This document shows, in pieces, positions 19,669 through 62,390 of a stretch of 64,000 nucleotides of DNA (the first letter of the stretch is position 1; every line of letters begins with the position of its first letter). The notes beneath the pieces are model-generated. The model was not told the origin of the DNA and did not search any database. It saw nothing but the letters and a program-made list of their open reading frames with translations. The DNA lies in contig NZ_JAGFVL010000064.1 in assembly GCF_017599345.1 (NCBI RefSeq), forward strand, positions 1 through 64,000, in the 5' to 3' direction. The position numbers were made by a program, and so were the translations under genes. This stretch comes from Gracilibacillus suaedae (GTDB lineage: Bacteria > Bacillota > Bacilli > Bacillales > Amphibacillaceae).

Positions 19669-20253
19669 ATGGCAACCAATCCAAAGAAAAATAATGAAAA
19701 AAAACCGAGTGTTTTTCAATGGTTAATAGTAATACTTGTATCGTTAATTTTTGCATTGCTGATAACGGTATTAATCCTATACGTGATGGGCGTGGATGTT
19801 GGTAAATATACAAAGGAAACATTAAATAAGGTTCCATTTATAGACGAGCAAGTGACAACGGACCAAGAAGAATTACACGCTAATCAGTTAGAGGAGAAAG
19901 ATCAACAAATTGATAAGCTTCAAGAAGAGCTTGACGCATTACAATATGAAGTTCAAACAAAAGACGGAACTATTTCTGAACTGGAAGAAGAAATATCAGA
20001 TTTGTCTTCACAAATTGTAGAATTGGAAGATGCTCAGGAGAACGATACAGAAAATTCAGACTCAATTGATGAGCTTGCTGCTTCTTTTACTGCGATGAAA
20101 CCGAAAACGGCAGCACCTATATTGGAAACGATGGAGGCTGATATCGCTGTACCATTATTACGTCAATTAGATTCAGAAGTTAGAGGAGAAATCTTAGGTG
20201 GGATGGACCCGGAAATAGCAGCTGAATATTCAGATTTATTAGTGAATGAATGA
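19669..20253 (+). CDS. ylxF: MotE-like flagellar protein (YlxF), MgtE N-domain family
   Basis: The 194-residue protein has one membrane helix near 18-40 (VFQWLIVILVSLIFALLITV), a long coiled coil (about 65-125) and a C-terminal MgtE-N-like domain (FTAMKPKTAAPILETMEADI). In other bacteria MotE-type proteins act as chaperones for stator components; the B. subtilis counterpart is ylxF between fliJ and fliK. The position here is identical. The stator role is known for relatives and inferred here. Confidence 0.82.
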   Translation: MATNPKKNNEKKPSVFQWLIVILVSLIFALLITVLILYVMGVDVGKYTKETLNKVPFIDEQVTTDQEELHANQLEEKDQQIDKLQEELDALQYEVQTKDGTISELEEEISDLSSQIVELEDAQENDTENSDSIDELAASFTAMKPKTAAPILETMEADIAVPLLRQLDSEVRGEILGGMDPEIAAEYSDLLVNE

Positions 20254-20280
20254 TGAGGCAATTTGAAAGGAGGTGAAAAA

Positions 20281-21657
20281 ATGATTGTAGCACCTGAATG
20301 GTTTGCGAATGGCTCAGCCGTGCCTACACTTAAAACTATAAGAGATAAAGTAGAAGGAAAAGGTTTTTCTGATCTTATGTCAGCCAATATGGCAAGCAAT
20401 AGACAACAAGCAAGTCTAACAGAACCTGATGGTGACACAAACACAGTAAAGCTAATTGATACAGAATCGTTACGAGATACCTTAGGAAGTTTATCGGAAG
20501 AACAATTGAATGGACTAACAGAATTAATCAACATGATCAACAATAATTCGGAGCATACTGACAATGAAGGTTTATCACAAGAGGAATTAATGACATTTAT
20601 CAAGGAGAACCTAAATGATGATCAAATAGAATTATTAGAAGGACAACTTGAAGTATTAGCTGACTTGATCAAGAAATTGCTAGAAGTCGATCACATAGGT
20701 AAGAGTACAGGAGGGCAAGACACTAATCTTTATTTTAAGGATGCCTATCTCGTGCAAAATAGTATAGTCCAACAAAGCCAAAATACAGAAGTTGTTTTAG
20801 GTGAAAAAACAACAACACTAGTCGAACAAACAGAAAAAATAGTACAACAAATTCAAAACCAAACTATTAATAATCGTGATTACAAACAAATTTTACAATT
20901 GTTAAAGCAATGGTCACAAATGAATCATCAGACATTGCAAGCAGCACAGAATCTTCTATCAGAAGCTACCAATGAGAAAAGTAGTGAAATATGGTCGAAG
21001 TTGTTAGCAAATTTTCAAAATCGCAGGTCTATGCAGCAGCATTATGGAAGTACGCAAAAGGTTACGCAACAAGATGTAAAGCGTTGGATTGAAAGTGCAA
21101 TGGAAAGAATAGAACCTATAAGTAAGCAGGAGCAATCGCAGGTCGTTAGAAATGATACCGGAAGTCAACAAGTTCAATCGAAAATACAACAATATGTGAT
21201 TCACCTGTCCCAAACAAATAGTGATCAACAGTTAGCTCAGAAACAACTTATTGATCAATTTCAGCAAGTCATGCAAAAAAGTAATTTTATGAAGCTATCA
21301 AGCGGAGCTAACCAACTGATGATACGACTTCAACCGAAACACTTAGGGGATGTTACCGTTAAATTGACCCAAATCAATGGTGAAATGACAGTTAAAATGA
21401 TTGCTAGTACACAAGGTGCTAAAGAATTGTTAGAGGGGAACCTGAAGCAGCTTCGTCATATGTTCTCGCCACAACAAGTAATCATTGAAAAACAAGAAAA
21501 CTTTACTCAGATTAACCAAGAAGAATTAACGGATGACAACTTGAATTCTCAAGAAGAAGAAAAGCAACAACAGCAGGACGATCAGAAAGAGGAGGAATCC
21601 TATTCTGATAACCAAAATTTAAGTTTCCATGATATGTTGATGGATGCGAAAGTGTAG
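20281..21657 (+). CDS. fliK: Flagellar hook-length control protein FliK
   Basis: FliK measures the hook and makes FlhB switch to filament export. The 458-residue protein has a Gln-rich, variable N-terminal two thirds and a conserved C-terminal Flg_hook domain near 340-425 (LMIRLQPKHLGDVTVKLTQI, then a Gln/Glu-rich tail). I chose ATG 20281 because AAAGGAGGTGA lies 3-6 bases upstream; the TTG at 20263 sits before this site. flgD follows after 10 bp. Confidence 0.9.
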   Translation: MIVAPEWFANGSAVPTLKTIRDKVEGKGFSDLMSANMASNRQQASLTEPDGDTNTVKLIDTESLRDTLGSLSEEQLNGLTELINMINNNSEHTDNEGLSQEELMTFIKENLNDDQIELLEGQLEVLADLIKKLLEVDHIGKSTGGQDTNLYFKDAYLVQNSIVQQSQNTEVVLGEKTTTLVEQTEKIVQQIQNQTINNRDYKQILQLLKQWSQMNHQTLQAAQNLLSEATNEKSSEIWSKLLANFQNRRSMQQHYGSTQKVTQQDVKRWIESAMERIEPISKQEQSQVVRNDTGSQQVQSKIQQYVIHLSQTNSDQQLAQKQLIDQFQQVMQKSNFMKLSSGANQLMIRLQPKHLGDVTVKLTQINGEMTVKMIASTQGAKELLEGNLKQLRHMFSPQQVIIEKQENFTQINQEELTDDNLNSQEEEKQQQQDDQKEEESYSDNQNLSFHDMLMDAKV

Positions 21658-21667
21658 GTGATAAACA

Positions 21668-22120
21668 ATGACTTCTATTGATCCATCCTATTATTTATCT
21701 AACCAAAATCAATCAAGAGAGGTTAATAATAGTTTAGGGAAAGATGAGTTTTTAAAAATTTTAATGACACAATTGCAAAATCAGGATCCATTAAACCCGA
21801 TGGAGGATAAAGAGTTTATCTCACAAATGACAACTTTTTCATCATTAGAGCAAATGATGAACATGTCTAATTCTATTGATACGCTAGTACAAAACCAAAC
21901 CGTTTCTCCTGTTATACAATATAGCCATTTAATCGGAAAAGAAGTTAGTTATTATCGTATAGATGAAGAAACTGGTGAAGTAGCAGAACCGAAAGAGATT
22001 GCTACAAGTGAAGTGAAGGCAATCTCACAAAATGGAGGTTATGCCGTAATAGAATTAGATAACGAAACGAAAATATACACCGATGAGGTACTCAGAATCA
22101 ATGATCCTTCCGCGGAATAA
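21668..22120 (+). CDS. flgD: Flagellar hook-capping protein FlgD
   Basis: FlgD caps the growing hook and lets FlgE add at the tip. The 150-residue protein has the conserved N-terminal part LGKDEFLKILMTQLQNQDPL and NPMEDKEFISQMTTFSSLEQ. The C-terminal part is short, as in Bacillus. It lies between fliK and flgE as in B. subtilis. Confidence 0.95.
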   Translation: MTSIDPSYYLSNQNQSREVNNSLGKDEFLKILMTQLQNQDPLNPMEDKEFISQMTTFSSLEQMMNMSNSIDTLVQNQTVSPVIQYSHLIGKEVSYYRIDEETGEVAEPKEIATSEVKAISQNGGYAVIELDNETKIYTDEVLRINDPSAE

Positions 22121-22135
22121 AAGAGGAGGGATACT

Positions 22136-22495
22136 ATGGATAATCGGATCCATGCTTATCATCATCCACTTGTTCCAAAAAACTTAAAAGTTCAACAAAA
22201 TAAATCTAGTGATTTTGCTAAAGTCTTAAAAGAGCAACAGGAAATTGAAATAAGTAAACATGCTAGTGACAGAATGACTCAGCGAGATATTCATTTGAGT
22301 GATACAGATTGGAACAAGATGAACGAGAAATTGAATCAAGCTAAGGACAAAGGTGTAAAAGAGTCATTAGTGATAATGGGTGATGCAGCATTTATTGTGA
22401 ATGCAGAAAGTAAGAAAGTGATAACTGCATTGGATAAAAGTGAGTTAAGCAGTAAAATCTTTACCAATATTAATGGAACGATCGTAATGGATTAG
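22136..22495 (+). CDS. Flagellar operon protein, TIGR02530 family
   Basis: The 119-residue protein resembles a conserved small protein found between flgD and flgE in Firmicutes. The central motif is EISKHASDRMTQRDIHLSD, and the C-terminus (VIMGDAAFIVNAESKKVITALDK) looks like a small beta-rich fold. AGAGGAGGG precedes the start. The function is not known to me; the operon position suggests a role in hook assembly. Confidence 0.82.
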   Translation: MDNRIHAYHHPLVPKNLKVQQNKSSDFAKVLKEQQEIEISKHASDRMTQRDIHLSDTDWNKMNEKLNQAKDKGVKESLVIMGDAAFIVNAESKKVITALDKSELSSKIFTNINGTIVMD

Positions 22496-22519
22496 GCTGG
22501 ACCCACAAGGGAGGCTTAC

Positions 22520-22545
22520 AAGCTATCAACCGACAGCGATAGCTT
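22520..22545 (+). other. Intercistronic stem-loop before flgE
   Basis: AAGCTATC (22520-22527) pairs perfectly with GATAGCTT (22538-22545) around a 10-base loop. No T-run follows, so it is not an intrinsic terminator. It lies 28 nt before the flgE start, whose own ribosome site is GGAAAGGAAG. It could protect or process the mRNA ahead of the abundant hook protein. Confidence 0.55.
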
Positions 22546-22572
22546 AATAAATAACGGAAAGGAAGTTTATAA

Positions 22573-23430
22573 ATGTTACGTTCAATGTATGCTGGTATTT
22601 CAGGTATGAAGAGTTTTCAAACAAAATTAGATGTGGTAGGTAACAATATAGCCAACGTAAATACAGCAGGCTTTAAAAAAGGCCGTGCAACTTTTCAAGA
22701 TATGATGAGTCAAACTGTCTCTGGCGCAAGTGCTCCAACTGCTAATCGTGGGGGGATCAATCCTGCCCAAGTGGGGACAGGCTCTCAGTTAGGATCGATT
22801 GACAATGTTCATACACAAGGAAATCGCCAAACGACAGAACGCCCATTAGATCTTCAATTAGAAGGGGACGGCATGTTTGTTTTTCAAGAAGGTGATGAAT
22901 TACAGTATTCACGTGCAGGTAATATGTACCTTGATGATGATGGTAATATCGTAAATGCTAATGGTCAATATTTAATGGGTTTTCAACCACAAGGTGCTGA
23001 ACCTTCGTCACTTGATGATATTGACCATACGCAAGTTGGAGTTATTAATATCCCTGATACTGCATCAAGTTTCAGTATTGAAGGGAATGGAGTGGTTAAT
23101 TATGTGGAAGATGGTGAAACGAGAGTTGCGGGCCAAATTGCTTTAAGTAAATTTGCTAATGAAGGCGGCTTAGAAAAGGTAGGAGCGAATATGTATCAAA
23201 CTACTGTTAATGACGGTCAGTTTGATACTGGAGAAAATGACTCGATTTATTTCCAACCAGAAGAAGGCGGAACTGCTTCTATTGTTGCTGGTGCATTAGA
23301 AATGTCTAACGTAGATCTTTCAGAAGAATTTACTGAAATGATTACAGCTCAACGTGGTTTTCAAGCAAATACAAGAATTATTACAACATCTGACGAAATA
23401 TTACAGGAACTAGTGAACTTAAAACGATAA
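22573..23430 (+). CDS. flgE: Flagellar hook protein FlgE
   Basis: FlgE forms the hook. The 285-residue protein has the N-terminal rod/hook signature (MYAGISGMKSFQTKLDVVGN and NIANVNTAGFKKGR) and the C-terminal signature (ALEMSNVDLSEEFTEMITAQ, then RGFQANTRII). Its length is close to Bacillus FlgE (once named FlgG). The next gene, swrD, is read from an unusual ribosome site just past this stop. Confidence 0.93.
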   Translation: MLRSMYAGISGMKSFQTKLDVVGNNIANVNTAGFKKGRATFQDMMSQTVSGASAPTANRGGINPAQVGTGSQLGSIDNVHTQGNRQTTERPLDLQLEGDGMFVFQEGDELQYSRAGNMYLDDDGNIVNANGQYLMGFQPQGAEPSSLDDIDHTQVGVINIPDTASSFSIEGNGVVNYVEDGETRVAGQIALSKFANEGGLEKVGANMYQTTVNDGQFDTGENDSIYFQPEEGGTASIVAGALEMSNVDLSEEFTEMITAQRGFQANTRIITTSDEILQELVNLKR

Positions 23431-23479
23431 GAAGGAGGAAGAGGGTTAAGGCTCTGTCCCTTAACTCTCTAAATCTATG
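23431..23479 (+). promoter_or_regulatory. Hairpin-bridged Shine-Dalgarno of swrD
   Basis: GAAGGAGG (23431-23438) is a strong ribosome site with no ATG, GTG or TTG at normal distance. The bases 23440-23451 and 23459-23470 form a 12-bp stem (one G-U pair) with a 7-base loop. The swrD ATG is at 23477, 38 nt from the site in linear sequence but about 7 unpaired nt if the hairpin forms. No other purine-rich site precedes the ATG. Confidence 0.7.
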
Positions 23480-23701
23480 ATTACATTAACAAAATTAAAA
23501 GGCGACACGATTACTATTAATGCGATATACATAGAACGTATTGAATCTTTTCCCGATACAACTATCACTATGACTAATCAGAAAAAAATATTTGTGAAAG
23601 AGTCAGAAGAAGCAGTGAAGGAAATGGTGAGAGAGTTTTATAAGGAAATTGGTCTCTTTCAACTTCAAAGAGAAGTAGGTGAACAAGGTAATGAATCCTA
23701 A
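23477..23701 (+). CDS. swrD: Flagellar motor-power protein SwrD (FlbD family)
   Basis: The 74-residue protein matches FlbD/SwrD: MITLTKLKGDTITINAIYIE, then PDTTITMTNQKKIFVKESEEA. In B. subtilis SwrD raises flagellar motor power and supports swarming. The ATG is fixed by the family N-terminus. Its ribosome site is displaced and appears bridged by a hairpin. It overlaps fliL by 11 bp. Confidence 0.88.
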   Translation: MITLTKLKGDTITINAIYIERIESFPDTTITMTNQKKIFVKESEEAVKEMVREFYKEIGLFQLQREVGEQGNES

Positions 23702-24107
23702 GTTAATCAAAATCCTAGTTGTCGTTTTATTAACTATTACGATAGCAGGAGCTGTAACATTATATTTTCTATTAAACAGTACCTCTAATGAAGGAGAGGC
23801 TATGTCAATAGATGATATGGTGAAAAACTCTTATACAACTGAAGAAATAAGAACAGATTTAAATGATGGTAATTACGTTCTCATACAATTTCAATTTATT
23901 ACGAATAGTAATGATGCTTTAGATGAAATTGAAAAGAGAGAATTCCAAGTGAAAAATGAATTTATAAAATTATCAGTTGATCTGACAGCAAAAGATTTTC
24001 AAGACAATTTATCGGAGTTAGAAAGTGATATGAAAACAGCTATGAATAAACATATGACGGAAGGTCAAATCGTCGATGTCTTAATTATAAGTAAAGTTAT
24101 CCAGTAA
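23691..24107 (+). CDS. fliL: Flagellar basal-body-associated protein FliL
   Basis: FliL is a single-pass membrane protein that surrounds or supports the stators. The 138-residue protein has one helix near 7-27 (ILVVVLLTITIAGAVTLYFL) and the typical periplasm-side domain (YVLIQFQFITNS, REFQVKNEFIKL). I chose ATG 23691, preceded by GTAGGTG within swrD; a GTG at 23679 lies too close to that site. Confidence 0.9.
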   Translation: MNPKLIKILVVVLLTITIAGAVTLYFLLNSTSNEGEAMSIDDMVKNSYTTEEIRTDLNDGNYVLIQFQFITNSNDALDEIEKREFQVKNEFIKLSVDLTAKDFQDNLSELESDMKTAMNKHMTEGQIVDVLIISKVIQ

Positions 24108-24132
24108 GTATACTCCGAATGGAGGTGGAAAA

Positions 24133-25134
24133 ATGGCAGATGAAGTTCTTTCGCAAAATGAGATTGACGCCTTATTATCAGCTTTATCATCTGGTGAAAT
24201 GGATGCCAATCAATTAAAAGAAGAAGAAAAAGATAAAAAGGTAAAAGTATATGATTTTAAAAGAGCATTAAGATTTTCTAAAGATCAAATTAGAAGTATT
24301 TCCAGAATCCATGATAACTTTGCCAGATTGTTATCAACGTATTTTTCAGCACAGTTAAGAACCTATGTGCATATTGCTGTTGCTTCTGTAGATCAAATTC
24401 CTTATGAAGAATTTATTCGATCGATTCCAAGCCAAACGATTTTAAATGTCTACAGTGTTGAACCATTAGATGGTAGAATTATTTTTGAATTCAACCCGAA
24501 TATAGCTTATGCTATGCTAGACCGTATGCTAGGTGGAAAAGGAAGCAGTGTTAATAAGATTGATAATTTAACCGAAATTGAAACATCACTTATGTCACAA
24601 CTGTTTGAAAAAGCTTTAGACAATCTTCAGGAAGCTTGGAGTTCAGTAGTTAATATTGATCCAATGTTGGAGGACTTTGAAGTAAATCCACAATTTCTAC
24701 AACTAGTTTCTCCTAACGAAACGGTTGTTGTAGTTTCTCTAGATACTACAATTGGTGATAGTAGCGGTATGATTAACATTTGTATTCCTCATGTAGTACT
24801 TGAACCGATTATACCCAAATTATCTGTTCATTATTGGATGCAAAATGAAAATTCTAAGGAAAGAAAGCCAGAAGAATATGAATCTATTTCACATAACATC
24901 AAACAAACGACATTGGACATGACCGCTGTATTAGGTGAAACATCGATTACATTAGAAGAATTTTTATTTTTAGGTATAGACGATACCATTGTATTGGATA
25001 AGAATATCGATCAAGCTTTAACATTACAGGTTGGTCAAGAGCCTAAGTTTCTTGTACAACCGGGAAAGAAAAAACAGAAGATTGCAGTGCAAGTAATAGA
25101 CGAAATTAAGGGAGGGGATCACGATGATGAATGA
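24133..25134 (+). CDS. fliM: Flagellar motor switch protein FliM
   Basis: FliM is the C-ring protein that binds phosphorylated CheY. The 333-residue protein begins with the CheY-binding peptide (VLSQNEIDALLSALS), followed by the CheC-like middle domain (about 45-225) and a SpoA domain (about 250-325). The ribosome site is TGGAGGTGG. It overlaps fliY by 11 bp. Confidence 0.96.
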   Translation: MADEVLSQNEIDALLSALSSGEMDANQLKEEEKDKKVKVYDFKRALRFSKDQIRSISRIHDNFARLLSTYFSAQLRTYVHIAVASVDQIPYEEFIRSIPSQTILNVYSVEPLDGRIIFEFNPNIAYAMLDRMLGGKGSSVNKIDNLTEIETSLMSQLFEKALDNLQEAWSSVVNIDPMLEDFEVNPQFLQLVSPNETVVVVSLDTTIGDSSGMINICIPHVVLEPIIPKLSVHYWMQNENSKERKPEEYESISHNIKQTTLDMTAVLGETSITLEEFLFLGIDDTIVLDKNIDQALTLQVGQEPKFLVQPGKKKQKIAVQVIDEIKGGDHDDE

Positions 25135-26302
25135 TGGAATGTTATCCCAAGATGAAATAGATGCACTATTAAATGGTTCTGATGATACCGATGAAGATGT
25201 GAATGCAAATGAGGCTCCTTCCACAGATGATTGCCTATCATCTATCGAAGAAGATGCTTTGGGGGAAATTGGGAATATATCATTTGGAAGTTCGGCAACT
25301 ACTCTTTCTACTTTATTAAATCAAAAAGTAGAGATTACAACACCTATCATCAGTGTTCTTCACAAAGGTGAATTAGAGGAAGAATTTCCGGTACCGTATG
25401 TAGGGATTGAAGTGAAATATACAGAAGGCTTTAGTGGAGCTAACTTATTTATACTAGAATCAAAAGATGCAGCGATTATTGCTGACCTCATGCTTGGTGG
25501 AGATGGTAATCCTGAAACACAGGAATTAAATGATATCCATTTAAGTGCTGTTCAAGAAGCAATGAATCAAATGATGGGAACTGCAGCCACTAGTATGTCT
25601 ACTGTTTTTAATAAGAAGGTAGATATTTCTCCACCGACAACATCTATTATGGATGTAACAGAAGAAGAAACACAATTCTTAACGCCAGATGATGATGTCT
25701 TAATCAAGGTTTCGTTTCAATTAAAAATTGGAACATTAATAGATTCAAAGATTATGCAGTTATTACCTGTAACATTCGCTAAAGATTTAGTAGATCAATT
25801 GCTGAATTCATCAGAGGAAACAGATAGATTAGATAATGAAACGACAGATGAAGCTGAAATCAATCAAAAAAATGAAACGACAGTATCAGTTCCTAATTCA
25901 CAAACCATACAGCAACAAGCACATAGCAATACCGGGCAACACCAGCCAAAACAATTAGGAACTCAATCAGCGGGAACAAATCAAGAGGTACAAGCGGCTG
26001 CATTCTCTAGTTTTGAGGATGTACCTATACAACAAAGCGAAAAGCGAAATCTAGACTTATTAATGGATATTCCATTACAAGTTACCGTCGAATTAGGAAG
26101 AACGCAACGAACGGTAAAAGAGATTTTAGAACTATCCTCAGGTTCCATTGTAGAATTAGACAAGCTCGCAGGTGAGCCAGTTGATATATTAGTCAACCAA
26201 AAACTAATAGCCAAAGGGGAAGTAGTAGTCATCGATGAAAACTTTGGTGTGCGGGTAACAGATATCGTAAGTAAAGAAGATAGATTAAAGCAACTAAAAT
26301 AG
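25124..26302 (+). CDS. fliY: Flagellar switch phosphatase FliY
   Basis: FliY is the Gram-positive C-ring protein that also dephosphorylates CheY-P. The 392 residues hold an N-terminal peptide like that of FliM (MLSQDEIDALLNG), two CheC-type active centres (EEDALGEIGNISFG near 43 and LSAVQEAMNQMMG near 140), a Gln- and Asn-rich linker (about 230-300) and a C-terminal SpoA/FliN domain (LMDIPLQVTVELGRTQRTVK). Both Glu and Asn pairs are intact. Confidence 0.95.
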   Translation: MMNDGMLSQDEIDALLNGSDDTDEDVNANEAPSTDDCLSSIEEDALGEIGNISFGSSATTLSTLLNQKVEITTPIISVLHKGELEEEFPVPYVGIEVKYTEGFSGANLFILESKDAAIIADLMLGGDGNPETQELNDIHLSAVQEAMNQMMGTAATSMSTVFNKKVDISPPTTSIMDVTEEETQFLTPDDDVLIKVSFQLKIGTLIDSKIMQLLPVTFAKDLVDQLLNSSEETDRLDNETTDEAEINQKNETTVSVPNSQTIQQQAHSNTGQHQPKQLGTQSAGTNQEVQAAAFSSFEDVPIQQSEKRNLDLLMDIPLQVTVELGRTQRTVKEILELSSGSIVELDKLAGEPVDILVNQKLIAKGEVVVIDENFGVRVTDIVSKEDRLKQLK

Positions 26303-26325
26303 GTTATCGAAAGGATGGATAAAAC

Positions 26326-26688
26326 ATGGCTAAAACAGTATTAATCGTAGATGACGCTGCTTTTATGAGAATGATGATCAAGGATATTTTAACAAAGAAT
26401 GGGTATGACGTAGTAGGTGAAGCGCAGGATGGACAAGAAGCTGTTGAAAAATATAAAGAATTGCAACCTGACCTAGTAACAATGGACATTACCATGCCAG
26501 AAATGGATGGAATTGCTGCTTTAAAAGAAATTCAAAGTATCAATGGAGATGCTAAGGTTATTATGTGTTCTGCTATGGGACAACAAGCGATGGTAATTGA
26601 TGCAATCCAAGCAGGTGCCAAAGACTTTATTGTAAAACCATTTCAAGCTGACAGGGTAATCGAAGCCATTTCAAAAGTTTTAGGTTAA
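26326..26688 (+). CDS. cheY: Chemotaxis response regulator CheY
   Basis: A 120-residue single-domain receiver. The acid pocket is DD at 9-10, the phosphorylated residue is Asp54 (VTMDITMPEMDG), and Thr/Ser and Lys positions are present (MCSAMGQQ, FIVKPF). CheA phosphorylates it; FliM reads it and FliY, CheC dephosphorylate it. A GGATGG site precedes it. Confidence 0.96.
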   Translation: MAKTVLIVDDAAFMRMMIKDILTKNGYDVVGEAQDGQEAVEKYKELQPDLVTMDITMPEMDGIAALKEIQSINGDAKVIMCSAMGQQAMVIDAIQAGAKDFIVKPFQADRVIEAISKVLG

Positions 26689-26692
26689 TGAG

Positions 26693-27355
26693 GTGATTAG
26701 CATTAACCTGAAATTATGTATAAGTATATTATTTATATCGCTTCTAGTATGGCTTTCACCTATTAATCTAGAGGCAAGAATGGTAAATGAAATATTGGAT
26801 AATCAAGAAGAAATACAACTAGAAGAAGAGAATGAAGTGAATGATAGTGAAGGAGTCACAGAAACAGATGATCAGCTTACTGTTGAGTCCCCTACTTTTA
26901 TTGGTAGTTTCATTAAACTCATTCTCGCCTTAGCTATTGTGATTGGTTTGATTGTACTGATCTCAAAGTATTTGCGCAAAAAAAACGGGTTTCTCAAAAA
27001 GCATCAAGTAATTGAGAATTATGGTGGTATAACCGTTGGATCGAATAAATCGATTCAAACGATAAAGATAGGGGATCGTTTTTATGTCATTGGTGTTGCA
27101 GAGAACATTGAATTATTAATGGAAATAACGGACCCTGTTACAATCGAACAGTTAATCAAACAAGAAGAAACAAGTGATTCTTTAGATAAACTCAAGGCGA
27201 AACTGACAAAACAACCATCGGAGTCAACGAAAAGTAGCAATCAAAACTTTACTTCGCTATTTAATAAGGAGCTTAATACAATGAAAGAAGGAAGAAAAAA
27301 AGTATATCAAAAACTAAAGGAAAGTAGTCAAAAAAATGATGATTCATCTCATTGA
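26693..27355 (+). CDS. fliO: Flagellar export-gate protein FliO (FliZ)
   Basis: The protein has an N-terminal signal-like helix (LCISILFISLLVWLSPINLEA), an acidic segment, a second membrane helix (IGSFIKLILALAIVIGLIVLI near 73-93) and a cytoplasmic basic tail, as in FliO/FliZ, which helps assemble FliP. The start is odd. No ATG precedes the signal helix. GTG 26693 lies inside the strong site GAGGTGAT (26690-26697). ATT 26702, eight bases after GAGG, is at ideal distance and may be the real start. Coordinates give the outermost normal start codon. Confidence 0.82.
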   Translation: MISINLKLCISILFISLLVWLSPINLEARMVNEILDNQEEIQLEEENEVNDSEGVTETDDQLTVESPTFIGSFIKLILALAIVIGLIVLISKYLRKKNGFLKKHQVIENYGGITVGSNKSIQTIKIGDRFYVIGVAENIELLMEITDPVTIEQLIKQEETSDSLDKLKAKLTKQPSESTKSSNQNFTSLFNKELNTMKEGRKKVYQKLKESSQKNDDSSH

Positions 27356-51267: not shown

Positions 51268-51840
51268 AAACTGCACAGTAACGAGGACATAGATTTGCTC
51301 TCTTCCATACTGCATTTTGATGAGTGCTGCCATACGCTCCGGCAGAATACTGCGCTTTCCGTGGGCGGTTTTTAGCTAACTTTGCAAAGAAAACCACTTT
51401 GCAAAGTGGATTTTCAGCTCTCGTGAGTCCCGCAGGAGTCTCCGTATTCTGCCTCCGCTATTGTTGTGCTCTGGTTATAGAGAGGATAAGAACTCATGGG
51501 ACTAAACTCTTTGGATTTCTTGTCACTTGATCAGAACAGTATACTAAGCTGTGGAAAAATGTGACATTCCTGGAACTACATATGGTGGAGAAATCGATTG
51601 GTTGATTTCGGATTAGTGTTGTAGGGCATATCTTAACGAAGGCCGCCCACTTCCACTCCTGTGGGACCTGTTTGACCTGAAGATCCACTTTTTCGAGCGG
51701 TTTTTGCTCGAAAAAGTTAGCTGAAGGGCAAACCCCACGGAACGGAAGTGGGCAGCCGAAGTGGCTGTTATCATCACGATATATGTCAAAATTACTTCAT
51801 AGGTGACTGTACATTTAGTTACGAACAAACAGTATTTTCA
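51268..51840. repeat. Composite inverted-pair repeat, copy 1 (upstream of polC)
   Basis: This ~573-bp stretch is matched almost base for base in its two halves by 61824-62390. The left unit has perfect 10-bp ends (51341-51350/51444-51453, GGCAGAATAC) and an inner 16-bp palindrome (51394-51409). The right unit has 14-bp ends (51641-51654/51744-51757) and a perfect 11-bp hairpin (51688-51698/51706-51716). Read on the reverse strand, the left unit shares CTCCTG-GGGAC, CTGAA-ATCCACTT, AAAGTTAGCT and CCCACGGAA with the right unit, so the two are inverted relatives. The 51217-51267 stretch shows nothing clear. Confidence 0.8.
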
Positions 51841-61823: not shown

Positions 61824-62390
61824 AAACTGCACAGTAACGAGGACAAGGATTTGCTCTCTTCCGTACTGAATTTTGATGAGTGCTACCATATGCTCCGGCA
61901 GAATACTGCGCTTTCCGTGGGCGGTTTTTAGCTAACTTTGCAAAGAAACCCACTTTGCAAAGTGGAGCTTCAGCTCTCGTGAGTCCCACAGGAGTCTCCG
62001 TATTCTGCCTACGCTATTTTGGTTCTCTGATTATAGAAAGAAAGGAAATCATGATACTAAATTTTTCTGTTTTGTTACAGTGCTAATCGGCTGTAAATGC
62101 CCCTTTAGCATAGTCGCACCCTTTGCTACATTTGGTGTAGAAATCGACTGGTTGATTTCGGATTAGTGTTGTGGAGCATATCTTAACGAAGGCCGCCCAC
62201 TTCCACTCCTGTGGGACCTGTTTGGCCTGAAGATCCACTTTTTCGAGCGGTTTTTGCTAGAAAAAGTTAGCTGAAGGGCAAACCCCACGGAAAGGGAAGT
62301 GGGCAGCCGGAGTGGCGGTTATGATCACGATATATGTCAAAATTACTTCATAGGTGACTGTGCATTTAGTTTCGAACAAACAGTATTTTC
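61824..62390. repeat. Composite inverted-pair repeat, copy 2 (between rbfA and truB)
   Basis: This copy matches 51268-51840 in both halves and in orientation. The left unit keeps the 10-bp ends (61897-61906/62000-62009) and the 16-bp palindrome (61950-61965). In the right unit the inner hairpin has one mismatch (GCTAG for GCTCG). The spacer between halves (about 62020-62125) differs from copy 1 and contains GTGCTAATCGGCTGTAAATGCC, resembling the start of the structured repeats at 6613 and 56577. Bases 62391-62462 hold a possible TACAAT -10 box (62437-62442) and the truB ribosome site. Confidence 0.8.

Follow-up and report, generated by a model that had tools for sequence, protein, structure and literature searches.

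The bridged ribosome sites known to us are those of two genes of phage T4. In gene 38, an RNA structure cuts the distance between the Shine-Dalgarno (SD) sequence and the AUG from 22 to 5 nt, and in gene 25 the SD-start distance is cut from 27 to 11 nt, the latter as followed by reporter assays and DMS probing; the gene 25 structure is restricted to close T-even phages, in which the stem is conserved (available part of PMC3014915). Within the open-licence literature, neither a hairpin-bridged ribosome site of a bacterium nor anything on the flgE-swrD junction was found, and the available part of PMC6429828 mentions none of flagella, flbD, swrD and flgE.

SwrD is reported to enhance motor power under swarming conditions (available part of PMC9195833). 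In the window, i.e. the whole stretch of 64,000 nucleotides of Gracilibacillus suaedae DNA analysed here, a hairpin lies between a strong SD and the start codon of swrD. We consider it probable, with a rough probability of 0.86, that this junction constitutes a split ribosome-binding site which is bridged by the intervening hairpin. The likeness to T4 gene 38, which was drawn in a first, sequence-only reading of this DNA, is borne out, as the accessible part of PMC3014915 also describes an SD at a non-functional distance that is shortened by structure.

Geometry of the swrD junction

In the window, swrD is positioned between flgE and fliL, and each part of the junction lies on the forward strand. 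The open reading frame of flgE (22573..23430), a member of the flagellar hook/rod family with the Pfam domains Flg_bb_rod, LlgE_F_G_D1 and Flg_bbr_C, ends in a TAA read directly at 23428-23430 and is followed by the distal SD GAAGGAGG of swrD (23431..23438), which pairs with the anti-SD at -15.2 kcal/mol. A single A (23439) separates this SD from the stem. The hairpin comprises the 5' arm AGAGGGTTAAGG (23440..23451), an apical loop CTCTGTC of 7 nt (23452..23458), at which some relatives carry ∼110–330 nt extra, and the 3' arm CCTTAACTCTCT (23459..23470), both arms being assigned from sequence, fold and covariation. Behind the stem, the 6-nt gap AAATCT (23471..23476; 6–11 nt in 206 of the 230 hairpin-bearing junctions considered below) leads to the ATG of swrD (23477..23701), an open reading frame of 74 aa whose residues 1–58 match the FlbD (SwrD) family (Pfam PF06289, E 8.8e-22).

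The sequence-only reading had proposed a strong site at 23431-23438, 38 nt from the ATG, and between the two a 12-bp hairpin (23440-23451/23459-23470) with one G-U pair and a loop of 7 nt. The former is read directly in the sequence and the latter was confirmed at base resolution, with 11 Watson–Crick pairs and one G-U pair. The ∼7 nt that folding was said to leave between SD and ATG correspond to the 1 + 6 nt counted outside the stem. Likewise, no other SD precedes the swrD ATG: at 3–13 nt from the start, the best pairing amounts to -0.9 kcal/mol by our own scoring, compared to -15.2 kcal/mol for the distal SD. A missed start nearer to this SD, considered earlier as a reason to reject the arrangement, does not occur, since the FlbD profile aligns from residue 1 of the 74-aa frame, in line with N-terminal conservation, and an in-frame TAA (23462-23464) lies ahead of the ATG; a nearer in-frame start is thereby ruled out. 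At the distal end of the gene, the start of fliL (ATG 23691 or GTG 23679) overlaps the end of swrD (stop 23701; overlap region 23679-23701 in the window), so that swrD and fliL may be translationally coupled. The flgE coding sequence itself contains a 16-nt inverted repeat (22956-22971 / 23018-23033) with 88% complementarity.

The 38-nt spacer of the window folds at -16.1 kcal/mol (z -5.16), which was equalled by none of 200 shuffles. Over 121 nt the energy lies within the ordinary range (z -1.26, matched by 23 of 200 shuffles), and the stem was not listed by an inverted-repeat finder, probably due to its G-U pair. Among the 346 ORFs called in the own genome, bridge geometry is seen at some candidate start of 95, with swrD ranking fifth by energy, and thus represents weak evidence when taken alone. 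Both this frequency and the ordinary 121-nt energy would fit a chance hairpin or a misplaced swrD start codon, an explanation whose probability we regard as negligible: it is at odds with the z score of the spacer, with the conservation and covariation of the hairpin among relatives and with the FlbD alignment from the first residue, and the comparative data in our view refute it. Without L365, which duplicates window bases, 28 of 327 called ORFs (356 kb of the own genome) have no local SD, many of these 28 being short and possibly not genes, and bridge geometry is present in two of the 28, namely in swrD (-31.3) and, weakly, in one further ORF (-17.1). It is solely through the combination of the geometry with a missing local SD and with conservation that swrD stands out. 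Hairpin scoring uses the very folding that defines the hairpin, for which shuffles, arm swaps and a sequence-only alignment are a partial remedy. The conservation of the structure rests on the comparison of relatives, with its pairing and covariation, and not on the 121-nt energy. As another identity of the hairpin, an intrinsic terminator was rejected: no terminator-like site was found at 23440-23470, there is no T run and the tail reads AAATCT.

Conservation in Gracilibacillus and across the order

Of 17 Gracilibacillus genomes, 16 gave a swrD match, and 15 of these 16 loci exhibit the compact SD-hairpin-ATG layout. In G. ureilyticus (L015; named record L044) an insertion lies between the arms while the outer stem is kept, placing the SD 149 nt from the ATG; due to this loop insertion, L015 was left out of the covariation alignment, which was made from sequence alone and holds 15 of the 16 genus rows. 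Nine of the 12 stem pairs show two-sided changes in this alignment. Paired cells account for 92.8%, compared to 83.6% after shuffling (0 of 500 as high), and pairing falls to 37–62% if the partners are slid along the alignment. RNAalifold recovers 11 of the 12 pairs unprompted. The flgE-swrD junction hence passed the covariation check proposed in the earlier reading, and the stem structure is kept through compensatory change.

For the comparison across the order, a main set of 260 loci was assembled from genome-search matches in the genus, the family and the order, from 80 named loci and from fetched stretches; the GTDB order of the named loci was unchecked, and some of them, e.g. Lysinibacillus, may fall outside the order. 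By our own count, the loci touch 38 of 47 family codes. Removal of 24 duplicates (judged over the stretch from 60 nt upstream to 30 nt downstream of the start) left 236 distinct junctions, 233 of which were scored, while L111, L168 and L185 were dropped as no flgE stop was recognised within 290 nt. The genomes of L168 and L185 were refetched with longer stretches (L334 and L403), in which the SD and both arms are present together with large loops. In the final scoring, SD and hairpin were evaluated jointly, which puts the SD at a wrong position in a small number of cases (e.g. L103, L108, L112, L146 and L257). An earlier SD caller often took the purine-rich 5' arm for the SD, and 44 of the 233 rows were flagged, many of them for that reason as judged by eye.

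A hairpin is located between SD and start in 230 of the 233 scored junctions, and 229 of these hairpins have 6 bp or more and an energy of -6 kcal/mol or lower; the junctions share descent, so that the counts are not independent. The linear SD-start spacing of the hairpin-bearing junctions ranges from 23 to 253 nt in the main set, mostly 30–45 nt, and the stems have a median length of ∼11 pairs. The SD core lies 0–3 nt from the stem in 218 of the 230, and 5–14 nt remain outside the hairpin in 215. For the 227 junctions with spacers of 20–100 nt, the quartiles of the effective spacing are 9, 10 and 11 nt, so that a stable hairpin leaves a functional distance both in these relatives (median 10 nt) and in the window (7 nt); the median z score of the spacer fold is -4.4, with 208 of 227 below -2. 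An effective spacing of 6–14 nt is reached by 92% of the real but 39% of the shuffled spacers. The bridged median of 10 nt exceeds that of ordinary genes, for which the SD-start spacing has a median of 7 nt and quartiles of 6–8 nt (177 genes of the own genome). It is the distance left after folding which is nearly constant, and not the sequence, the loop or the linear distance. This constancy supports a bridge, since a bridge must keep that distance and no rival explanation requires it.

Of 7 outer positions, 6.7 are paired between the arms of one junction, compared to 4.0 between arms swapped among junctions (213 stems with 143 distinct 5' arms). Fewer start codons than expected lie 4–13 nt past the distal SD (70 of 214 junctions vs 119 expected from shuffles), ATG included (18 vs 46 expected), and in 33 of 214 junctions an in-frame alternative start is found further upstream without a stop. 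Judging from these sequence comparisons, the hairpin is real and deeply conserved and most probably bridges a split ribosome site.

Named genera and species with this layout include Priestia megaterium, Anoxybacillus, Lysinibacillus and Psychrobacillus, and in a second genus the layout was present in 18 of 18 genomes, as judged by eye and by single folds. Bacillus subtilis was not recognised among the genomes searched, in which a flagellin query for this species reached at most 71% identity over the full length. One genome (G918, 3% contamination) carries a swrD intergenic stretch (L396) identical to that of Fictibacillus aquaticus (L059) but unlike that of the 17 further genomes in the genus where G918 is placed, pointing to contamination or gene transfer in G918. 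Among the 260 loci before deduplication, 24 use TTG and 13 use GTG as start codon (e.g. L054, L061-L063 and L076-L080); with so many relatives having such a start behind the hairpin, low expression of swrD may be favoured.

Missing hairpins, enlarged loops and the wider Bacillota

A strict bridge test was preferred, as a lenient one inflated the class having both a bridge and a local SD in the wider taxa (45 of 91, many of them false). With the strict test, a strong SD too distant from the start and no other SD were found, as in the window, in 209 of the 236 main-set junctions, which have a bridge without a local SD; 7 have both, 6 a local SD only and 14 neither, and we read 7 of these 14 as long-loop cases past the 75-nt reach of the test. 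Three of the 6 local-only junctions (L074, L109 and L230) have weak local SDs of -7.6 to -7.7, and L230 fits the bridge layout weakly. Local SD and bridge thus mostly exclude each other. Where the hairpin is absent (L233, L241 and L242), an SD is found at 7, 9 and 7 nt from the start (-10.9, -7.6 and -12.4 kcal/mol, respectively), that of L241 being weak. L217 lacks both a clear distal SD and a good hairpin.

Some species have loops longer by ∼110–330 nt with the outer stem retained. In L015, L107, L156 and L403, in which SD and start are 149, 253, 172 and 364 nt apart, the effective distance is 8–12 nt, and only 0–3 of 184 foreign 3' segments pair equally well. Pairing can also be made out in L334 (266 nt), yet in the arm test it is no better than the null (45 of 184 as low), and similar outcomes were obtained for L214 and L109 (43 and 52 of 184 as low). 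The inserts in the hairpin loops of three other lineages (L107, L334 and L403) resemble one another as related copies, and those of L107 and L334 match stretches elsewhere in the own genome. They represent an interspersed repeat, to which matches are found in the window at 61984-62020, 61892-61924, 51332-51368 and 2-33. The idea of a bridging hairpin, put forward in the sequence-only reading, is supported by covariation, by the narrow effective spacing, by the nearby SD of junctions that have no hairpin and by loop insertions that keep the stem.

From the class and the phylum, a wider sample of 95 loci was drawn, of which 91 were used and L340-L343 were dropped as no start was located. A nearby SD is present in 74 of these 91 junctions. 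The strict test assigned 13 to a bridge without a local SD, 61 to a local SD without a bridge, 13 to both and 4 to neither, and the bridged junctions belong to the family codes f49, f55, f65 and f77. A strong hairpin (z below -2) stands ahead of the local SD in 44 of 61 scored wider junctions, a count that omits 6 junctions which are too short and 10 without a recognised flgE. Examples from outside the order in which a flgE-flbD hairpin precedes a normal SD are L279, L301, L302, L337-L339 and L345-L353.

Conservation of a hairpin at this junction consequently need not reflect bridging. Given its position in front of a normal SD in the wider Bacillota, the hairpin may predate the bridge and may serve a further purpose in the operon. 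In agreement with this, it could be an intercistronic element for stability, processing or insulation of the flgE mRNA, with swrD being translated through re-initiation by flgE ribosomes; the 44 of 61 wider junctions would fit this explanation, as would the closeness of flgE stop and SD core (median 5 nt, quartiles 3–8 nt, 233 junctions). However, it leaves unexplained why a narrow range of 9–11 nt is found outside the hairpin, why a local SD is missing in 209 of the 216 strict main-set bridges and why the distal SD is strong and has few starts in its vicinity. Moreover, in 11 of 233 junctions the flgE stop and the SD core are >25 nt apart, and the 156, 188 and 372 nt between flgE stop and swrD in L015, L156 and L403, where the stem is kept, appear unfavourable for re-initiation. 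We therefore consider this explanation quite unlikely. With the bridge as the preferred reading, the arrangement presumably arose when the SD came to be placed 5' of a pre-existing hairpin between the cistrons, and in Bacilli the stem would have become indispensable once the SD lay 5' of it.

Proposed function and comparison with known systems

We propose that the strong SD just past the flgE stop codon is bound by the 30S subunit through base pairing, while the hairpin would remove 31 nt from the path of the mRNA. Due to this removal, the swrD start would be placed 7 nt past the SD (typically 9–11 nt in the relatives) and would be able to enter the P site. Ribosomes would thus initiate from the distal SD over the folded hairpin, which is expected to be required for translation of swrD rather than inhibitory, and to act as a constant structural part instead of a switch. 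Breakage of the stem should consequently lower SwrD.

A switch responding to temperature, salt or an RNA-binding protein had been suggested in the sequence-only reading but is unsupported, the stem being predicted to fold at 65–75 °C, the SD being normally accessible and the loop variable. In such a switch, the hairpin or an extension of it would hide the SD, and temperature, salt or a protein would open or close it. The SD core, unpaired about half the time in the local ensemble (0.46 in the window), could be taken in its favour, but SD accessibility is the same as for ordinary genes (median P unpaired 0.44 for both, 217 bridged sites and own-genome genes) and shuffling of the post-stem gap leaves it unchanged (mean 0.46 vs 0.45). 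The isolated window hairpin is modelled at -6.9 kcal/mol at 65 °C and -4.1 kcal/mol at 75 °C, the loop size varies from 3 to 16 nt with no constant loop sequence by eye, and positions 20000-27000 yielded no hit to Rfam covariance models with E values up to 1. A regulatory switch is therefore very unlikely. An RNA thermometer in particular was rejected, as SD and start lie outside the main stem, the modelled stem is stable at 65 °C and the accessibility of the SD is ordinary.

It is also conceivable, although unlikely, that the junction serves as an order-of-assembly device, for which the old Bacillota hairpin was recruited as the SD came to lie 5' of it. A flgE ribosome on the stop codon ∼5 nt before the SD core would cover the SD and open the base of the stem, so that heavy translation of the hook gene would suppress swrD. 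Once hook translation drops, the hairpin would refold and bridge, SwrD would be made and motor power would rise.

Most of the sampled members of a bacterial order appear to have retained the bridged site. Its enlarged loops (∼110–330 nt) and its losses with a nearby SD are ready-made experiments on the tolerance of the 30S subunit for structure between SD and start. Should the bridge hold true, swrD of these genomes would be misjudged by tools for start-site prediction or ribosome-site calculation which rely on linear spacing. The element could further allow a factor of motor power to be manipulated genetically in tractable laboratory Bacilli.

RNA thermometers and SD-sequestering hairpins also have a hairpin at the ribosome-binding site, but at swrD both the SD and the start codon are outside the main stem. 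With translational coupling and re-initiation, the junction shares a start codon 3' of a stop codon within an operon (available part of PMC12548453), while it differs in that the SD of swrD follows the stop, that the start is typically 40–55 nt past the stop across a stable hairpin and that stop and start do not overlap.

By analogy, the swrD junction may operate like the T4 cases. As in gene 38, a structure between SD and AUG would shorten the spacing, although gene 38 has a shorter spacer and is a phage gene. The 'accommodated' site of T4 gene 25 likewise consists of a distant SD made functional by structure, with a conserved stem, at the intercistronic junction of genes 26 and 25 (the latter according to a cited title). 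In contrast to this phage gene, swrD is a chromosomal flagellar gene in which the putative bridge occurs in most sampled members of the order and in some others. Its gaps are mostly 30–45 nt and reach up to 364 nt with loop insertions, and while the gene 25 structure is known from experiments, that of swrD is known from sequence and predicted folds.
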